A stretch of 64,000 bases of DNA from Desulfuromonas sp. (GTDB taxonomy: Bacteria > Desulfobacterota > Desulfuromonadia > Desulfuromonadales > Geothermobacteraceae). The stretch is taken from positions 1 to 64,000 of the forward strand of contig PKUA01000009.1 of the NCBI GenBank assembly GCA_002868905.1, given 5' to 3'. Under the pieces are notes generated by a model that was not told the origin of the DNA, did not search any database, and worked only from the letters and a program-made list of their open reading frames with translations. The position numbers and the translations under genes are program-made. Positions 9,868 to 11,126 of the stretch are shown in pieces. Within the stretch, counting starts at the first letter, position 1, and the number at the start of each line of letters is the position of its first letter.

Positions 9868-10024
9868 GGCTGATGAAAAGACGTCATCTGCGGCGTTCCC
9901 CTTGCCCTCGTCGCTGCGACGTAGCTGCCGCTACGACTCGCTTGCTCGGCCTACGGCCGCCTTGCATCTGACGCCTTTTGATCAGCCTTTTTATGTCCAA
10001 CGTTGATAATTGACAGATGTGCTC
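9868..10024. repeat. 157-bp dispersed palindromic repeat, copy 1
   Basis: The element runs from GGCTGATG to ATGTGCTC and is about 95% identical to the copy at 10042-10198. Its first part (GCTGATGAAAAGACGTCATC) is nearly the reverse complement of a later part (TGACGCCTTTTGATCAGC), giving imperfect terminal inverted repeats around a 120-bp core. Inside, CGTAGCTGCCGCTACG forms a six-bp hairpin with a four-base loop. It resembles the palindromic intergenic elements scattered through Geobacter-type genomes. No open frame is present. Confidence 0.85.
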
Positions 10025-10041
10025 CGAATGCAGCATTGGCG

Positions 10042-10198
10042 GGCTGATGGGCAAATCAACGCCTGCGGCGTTCCCCTTGCCCTCGTCGCTGCGACGTAGC
10101 TGCCGCTACGACTCGCTTGCTCGGCCTACGGGCGCCTTGCATCTGATGCCTTTTGATCAGCTTTTTTTGTCCAACGTTGATAATTGACAGATGTGCTC
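10042..10198. repeat. 157-bp dispersed palindromic repeat, copy 2 (tandem)
   Basis: This is the second direct copy, 17 bases after copy 1. Differences from copy 1 are few and lie mostly at the start (GGGCAAATCAAC against AAAAGACGTCAT). The spacer (GAATGCAGCATTGGCG) recurs in diverged form after copy 2 (GGATGTAACATCGGCG), followed by another GGCTGATG at 10217. A third copy may therefore have begun here and been truncated. Confidence 0.85.
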
Positions 10199-10253
10199 TG
10201 GATGTAACATCGGCGGGCTGATGAGAAGGTCCCCGTTGGGGTGTCCCACCCCC

Positions 10254-10429
10254 AAAAAAATCAACAGTGACGAAACGGCCTCTGGTGCGCCCCTGAATCG
10301 TCTCTCTCTTTACGAAAGACGTGCTGCTTTTTCAGGTCCGGCCGGTGCATTTCTGCTTGACCCGTGGTTATTCACGGGTTGCCCGCCGGTGCTTTACGCG
10401 CTCTCAGATGACTGATTTCGTCACTGTTT
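10254..10429 (-). ncRNA. Candidate structured RNA, about 176 nt, unidentified
   Basis: On the minus strand the predicted 5' end (about 10429) pairs with the 3' end: AACAGTGACGAAA at 10263-10275 is the exact reverse complement of TTTCGTCACTGTT at 10416-10428. Inside this lie a second stem (TCTG..GCGC at 10281-10290 with GCGC...CAGA at 10398-10408) and two hairpins. Hairpin A spans 10338-10389 (CCGGC/GCCGG, then ACCCGTG/CACGGGT). Hairpin B spans 10292-10336 (CCTGAA/TTCAGG, then CGTCT/AGACG). All helices are nested and nearly abut, making a three-way junction. Seven U residues (10254-10260) follow the closing stem, and a TTGACA promoter precedes it. Size and paired ends recall 6S RNA, but the branching does not. 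No Rfam family is recognised. Confidence 0.7.
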
Positions 10430-10435
10430 GATTCT

Positions 10436-10463
10436 ATCTTATCCCTTCACTTTGCAATGTCAA
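10436..10463 (-). promoter_or_regulatory. Promoter of the structured RNA
   Basis: Reading on the minus strand, a perfect TTGACA (10463-10458) and TAAGAT (10441-10436) are separated by 16 bases. The predicted start, six to seven bases on, falls at 10429, exactly where the closing stem of the RNA begins. Confidence 0.7.
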
Positions 10464-10476
10464 CGAGATAACACAT

Positions 10477-10628
10477 TATAATTTCGCAGTTTTTCACTCA
10501 TGAAAAAAGCAACATTCGAACAGACCTCCGGCTGGACAAGCCGGAACGGATGGTCTAAAAATAACCGCAATGAGGACGGTTGGTATTTGCGCGGCCTCTG
10601 AAACTTTGGGGAGACAAGGATCGTAGTG
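10477..10628 (+). promoter_or_regulatory. greB upstream region with leader hairpin
   Basis: TATAAT at 10477-10482 could be a -10 box for greB, although the nearest -35-like TTGCAA (10452-10457) is 19 bases away. The leader would then hold a hairpin: AGACC/GGTCT closing at 10522-10556 around TCCGGCT/AGCCGGA (10527-10545). The ribosome site is AAGGA at 10616-10620. The region also carries the divergent promoter of the minus-strand RNA. Confidence 0.4.
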
Positions 10629-11126
10629 ATGGCGCAGGAACAGAGGATTTACATGACCCCAGGCTGCGCCGCCCGTTTCAGGGCGGAACTGAAGGAGCTG
10701 CTTTACCGGGAGCGCCCCGCCATGGTCGAGACCGTCGCCTGGGCCGCCAGTAACGGCGACCGTTCGGAGAACGCCGATTACCAGTATGGCAAGCGGCGCT
10801 TGAGACAGATCGACGGCCGCATCCGCTTTCTGCAGAAAAGACTCGAAGCAGCTGACGTGGTTGATCCGGTCTCCCAGAAAACCGTGGCCGGTGAGCGAGT
10901 CCTGTTCGGCTGCACGGTCACGGTGGAAGATGAAGAGGGAGATGAGAAAGTTTACAGCATTGTCGGCGTGGACGAGATCGAGTTGAAACGGGGGCGGGTC
11001 AGCTGGAGGTCGCCGCTCGGCAAGGCTTTGCTAGGACGTAAACTCGGTGATGTCGTCTCGTTTAAAGCACCGGCCGGGACCGTCGAGCTTGAAATCGTCG
11101 ACGTCGACTACAAAGCCCTTGATTAA
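10629..11126 (+). CDS. greB: Transcript cleavage/elongation factor GreB
   Basis: This 165-residue protein is of Gre length. The N-terminal coiled coil carries the catalytic acidic tip (ASNGDRSENADYQYGKRRL, about residues 37-56); the D and E there position Mg2+ in the RNA polymerase active site. The signature RIRFLQKRLEAADVVDP favours GreB over GreA. The C-terminal FKBP-like domain has PLGKALLGRKLGDVVSFKAP. The factor rescues backtracked RNA polymerase. The start at ATG 10629 is preferred to GTG 10626 because AAGGA is eight bases upstream of it. Confidence 0.93.
   Translation: MAQEQRIYMTPGCAARFRAELKELLYRERPAMVETVAWAASNGDRSENADYQYGKRRLRQIDGRIRFLQKRLEAADVVDPVSQKTVAGERVLFGCTVTVEDEEGDEKVYSIVGVDEIELKRGRVSWRSPLGKALLGRKLGDVVSFKAPAGTVELEIVDVDYKALD

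Follow-up and report, generated by a model that had tools for sequence, protein, structure and literature searches.

The 64,000-nucleotide window (the whole stretch of Desulfuromonas sp. DNA that was analysed) carries on its minus strand a gene for a structured, trans-encoded non-coding RNA of about 176 nt, with covarying helices, its own promoter, no conserved open reading frame and no fixed neighbour. Homologues occur in other families of the same order, and we have very high confidence that together they form a real RNA gene family. Support for the family is good, whereas its function is an inference. The first-pass annotation had proposed a free-standing structured RNA of this size, running from 10429 to 10254 with its own promoter and terminator. 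Those coordinates are correct, and the fold, the promoter, the U-run and covariation in relatives all support the proposal. The window copy has the following parts.

10254..10429, minus strand: structured non-coding RNA, about 176 nt, from the fold and from homologues with covariation
10458..10463, minus strand: -35 box TTGACA, at a position shared by the family
10436..10441, minus strand: -10 box TAAGAT, spacer 16
10464..10509, minus strand: AT-rich upstream region starting with TCATGA (10498-10503), from the upstream alignment
10254..10260, minus strand: run of seven U after helix P1; a U-rich tail lies here in nearly all members
10416..10428, minus strand: P1 5' strand, AACAGUGACGAAA, near-invariant family-wide
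10263..10275, minus strand: P1 3' strand, UUUCGUCACUGUU
10398..10412, minus strand: 5' strand of P2, an irregular helix, from covariation
10277..10291, minus strand: 3' strand of P2
10390..10397, minus strand: unpaired A-rich junction segment, from fold and alignment; GUAAAAA in most copies of family f12
10338..10389, minus strand: arm P3, from the minimum free energy (MFE) fold; its sequence differs between lineages
10292..10336, minus strand: arm P4, CCUGAA/UUCAGG plus an apical hairpin, from the MFE fold and alignment

The 177-nt strand folds with an MFE of -76.5 kcal/mol, against -47.1 ± 4.0 kcal/mol for dinucleotide shuffles (z = -7.4), and none of the 200 shuffles folded as well. P1 is the 13-bp stem with halves 140 bases apart that had been read from the letters: AACAGTGACGAAA (10428-10416) pairs with TTTCGTCACTGTT (10275-10263). 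A G and an A separate its 3' strand from the seven U (10260-10254) that had been described behind the closing stem. The interior had been drawn too simply. The two hairpins reported there correspond to two arms, and in the window copy P3 contains a pair of small hairpins, P4 a single one. The junction, said to be almost without unpaired bases, in fact leaves 8 nt unpaired (10397-10390, GUAAAGCA). This stretch, GUAAAAA in relatives, is among the best conserved unpaired pieces.

A blastn search over 136 genomes of the order, which the first-pass annotation took for Desulfuromonadales, gave partial matches, mostly in family f12, and these were aligned over the whole element. A covariance model built from 15 sequences (R1) found 18 strong copies as well as weak matches in other families. 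On inspection the weak matches, with the exception of L143, were judged to be real: they have the closing helix, the P2 helix and the U-run, with TTGACA in front at an unchanged distance, the promoter having been left out of all covariance models. A second model of P1 and P2 only (R2) and its extension (R3) both enlarged the set. Following manual checking, the covariance models give 35 copies in 28 of the 136 genomes, distributed over 11 families (f1, f2, f5, f7, f8, f9, f11, f12, f16, f17 and f20), and the compensatory changes among them provide the covariation in related genomes that had been set beforehand as a test of the RNA. Inspection removed L205 (a plain terminator), L206 and L207 (chance matches) and L143; L204 is kept as a doubtful member, with a fold z of -0.7, yet a recognisable promoter and P1. 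A pattern search with the 3' half of P1 confirmed the copies in f12, f8 and f16, and its hit L179 in f7 was dropped for having no 5' partner. Scanning genome contigs via GreB reached only distant phyla and was uninformative. Across the family the RNA ranges from 137 to 230 nt in length, and the mean fold z is -5.4 over 29 members.

The RNA is single-copy in its own genome, as judged by genome searches with covariance models, and elsewhere there are up to three copies per genome (three in G054 and G019; two in G014, G048 and G050). Its distribution is patchy, covering about one-fifth of the order's genomes. In family f1, it was found in the window's genome and in none of the four others, and the covariance model found no credible copy outside the order among about 390 (395) other sampled genomes of the phylum; these absences are not firm, because the genome searches score few candidates per genome. 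A housekeeping RNA would not usually be so patchy; the pattern fits either an accessory role or loss and transfer.

The closing helix P1 is near-constant in sequence, as AACRRUGACGRAA/UUYCGUCAYYGUU, that is, AAC(A/G)(G/A)UGACG(A/G)AA and its complement. Its variable positions form compensatory series (CAGUG/CACUG, CGGUG/CACCG, CGAUG/CAUCG), as does its inner end, where GACGAAA/UUUCGUC becomes GACGGAA/UUCCGUC. Over 30 aligned rows of P1 and P2, 92.6% of cells are paired and 13 of 25 pairs have changed on both sides, with 64 such cells against 21 in shuffles. The covariation score of these two helices is 0.357, compared to 0.189 for shuffles and at most 0.133 for structures slid by 1-3 columns; these figures lean upward, as the structure guided the alignment and one of its rows is a member's antisense strand, but the slid controls still separate clearly. 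For f12 together with the window copy, the full 65-pair structure beats controls on most measures.

The outer arms differ between lineages while the sequence of P1 stays, and three types can be told apart. Type A, comprising most of f12 and the window copy, has a GCRCGUAAAAA junction and arms CCUG/CAGG and CCUGAAUC/GAUUCAGG. Type B (f2, f5, f7, f9, f11, f16, f17, f20 and one f12 genome) has the interior AAACGGUGACGGAAACGCCGACGAGG...AAGUAGAGCGGACGAC... with arms GAGCG/CGCUC and UCCGG/CCGGA, and type C (f8, one f16 copy and one f12 copy) has other interiors. At one locus (L142, genome G014) two type B copies, 1501-1651 and 2718-2870, lie on the same strand, separated by 1.2 kb that includes a predicted membrane-protein gene.

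The minus-strand promoter TTGACA-16-TAAGAT is present as first read (10463-10458 and 10441-10436) and matches 10 of the 12 consensus positions; two promoter-like sites are seen in the 800-base region, where 0.5 are expected. Where the upstream sequence is long enough, in 33 copies, a -35 box (5 or 6 of 6 bases) is seen at -34 ± 1 in 32, compared to 6.5% of random windows of the same loci, and most copies share the spacer of 16. Farther upstream, type A copies (upstream regions of L125-L147) have in common an AT-rich stretch that reaches to about -76 and begins with TCATGA at a sharp edge. The f12 copies keep this same edge in differing neighbourhoods and show no similarity past it. Many type B copies have GTTGTAA near -70 instead. 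These stretches, different in the two types, are possible activator sites or UP elements, and the AT-rich region of the window copy may be one of them. At the other end, most f12 copies carry a further terminator of the ordinary kind (GGCGACC-GAAU-GGUCGCC-UUUU) 20-30 nt past the U-run. The window copy has none, so its 3' end likely falls after P1; that of the f12 RNAs may lie there or at the second terminator.

The surroundings of the gene are not fixed. No gene is common to the neighbourhoods of all copies, from which we conclude that the RNA most likely acts in trans; the varying identity and orientation of the flanking genes speak against a cis-acting leader, and cis-regulation was rejected. 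A small protein was likewise rejected: no reading frame is conserved among the copies, open reading frame starts differ, frameshifts separate close relatives and there is no obvious ribosome site. Some neighbours do recur between families, which supports common descent of the types. A HemG-like flavodoxin gene lies beside one f12 copy of type A and one f7 copy of type B (L157 and L201), and an AMP-nucleosidase-like gene lies near one type C and one type B copy (both genes named by eye). The greB-like neighbour in the window (10626-11126) is 58-71% identical to genes of f10 and f12, and 42-46% identical to the best match in the rest of its own family, four genomes in which the RNA is missing too; the segment may have been transferred, or gene and RNA may have been lost together. 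At another locus (L158, 5287-7012, genome G050), DarT-like and macro-domain (DarG-like) genes, recognised by eye, directly adjoin one copy, and defence cassettes may insert at the RNA gene. The window also holds a repeat element between the gene for the LIV transporter ATPase and that for the RNA: two direct repeats, almost identical and spaced about 175 bp (9870-10220, plus strand), with GC-rich cores at 9914 and 10089 that each end in ...TCCAACGTTGATAATTGACAGATGTGCTC; these were not seen elsewhere in the window.

How might such an RNA act? The sequence of P1 is kept across families and that of the arms is not, which points to recognition of P1 itself. In the predicted fold of the window copy, long unpaired stretches are few and the ends are buried in P1, an arrangement better suited to binding a protein than to base-pairing with other RNAs. 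On these two grounds we favour a protein that recognises P1, P2 and the junction, and we give an RNA-protein mode of action, in trans, a little less than even confidence. A need at the level of the DNA or the terminator could instead have conserved the sequence of P1. More specifically, and only tentatively, we propose a new functional class of ribonucleoprotein RNA, specific to the order, in which a candidate protein binds a constant helix and core, the arms diverge freely, each genome that carries it has one to three copies and the promoter is conserved and regulated. The main rival is a base-pairing small RNA, with a U-rich tail bound by Hfq or a chaperone like it, while the GUAAAAA junction or the apical loops pair with target mRNAs. 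This is possible but rather unlikely. It would account for the 3' U-run of nearly all copies, for the good conservation of GUAAAAA and some loops within f12 and for the one to three dispersed paralogues per genome; however, the 5' end is buried in P1, the window copy has little single-stranded sequence, and the unpaired sequences are not kept between types A and B, whereas the P1 helix is.

Known RNAs and elements offer further comparisons. Rfam 15 gave nothing at or above the gathering threshold over the whole window, and more permissive scans, run on the region of the RNA and on 12 relatives, gave no relevant match to any family, in agreement with the first-pass annotation, which had recognised none. 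Like 6S RNA (RF00013), the RNA has paired ends, a similar size, a stand-alone gene, a strong promoter and paralogues in one genome. However, the window has no sequence or covariance match to RF00013, two other loci of this genome account for 6S (80.7 and 50.7 bits, on contigs C53 and C64 of G000), and the fold has a multi-way junction with two arms instead of the large central bubble by which 6S resembles an open promoter. In line with the first-pass annotation, the RNA is not 6S, and it is very unlikely to bind RNA polymerase in the manner of 6S. Many genomes of the order also have two 6S matches. Bacterial Y RNAs such as YrlA have a closed 5'-3' helix of conserved sequence, a U tail and a variable interior. 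The same layout is found here, but no Rfam Y RNA model matches and no TROVE-domain protein (PF05731) was found in 39 relatives, the window's own genome included, by a search that does find the Deinobacterium control; a partner of Ro/Rsr is hardly credible. A CsrB/RsmZ-type sponge for CsrA would likewise be a free-standing, trans-acting small RNA with several copies in some genomes. Some members have 4-7 GGA motifs, and for Geobacter, which has CsrA, a CsrB is not proven (PMC11934962). The GGA motifs, however, are not enriched in loops: the window copy has one, paired, they lie in stems in nearly all members, and ANGGA motifs (0-5 per copy) are almost never unpaired. This makes a sponge a remote prospect. 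A miniature transposable element, with terminal inverted repeats that mimic P1, is also highly improbable. One would expect it to end in inverted repeats, to be multicopy in some genomes, to sit in varied surroundings and to be distributed patchily, all of which is seen here, but the conserved unit does not stop at the repeats, as it takes in the fixed promoter, the upstream element to about -76 and the f12 downstream terminator. In addition, P2 and the inner helices covary, and some copies share neighbours between families. A phage or plasmid origin was rejected, and this too counts against such an element: neither blastn nor a specific pattern gave a match. With a less strict 15-base pattern there were hits in at least 120 viral stretches, but of 80 loci compared with the RNA model none matched. 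Candidate structured RNAs from comparative-genomics surveys (PMC2864571, PMC6429828) are similar in being conserved intergenic RNAs of unknown function found by covariation; the RNA described here is covered by no Rfam 15 model. We found no description of it in the titles and abstracts of open-access papers.

On the ribonucleoprotein reading, a free-standing, non-coding RNA of a family outside Rfam would be transcribed from a promoter of sigma-70-type signature and would act in trans. P1, which pairs the 5' and 3' ends, would with the U-run that follows both terminate transcription and protect the two ends. The near-constant P1/P2 core and the A-rich junction form a putative binding site for an order-wide protein, which the ribonucleoprotein would sequester or guide, while the variable arms would adapt the RNA to each lineage. 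Starting from one small region, the search has uncovered an RNA gene family present in 11 families of one order. An RNA family this large, with covariation and a promoter at a fixed place, is a good candidate for a new RNA-protein machine or a global regulator, and the models and alignment provide direct probes for RNA-seq and pull-down.
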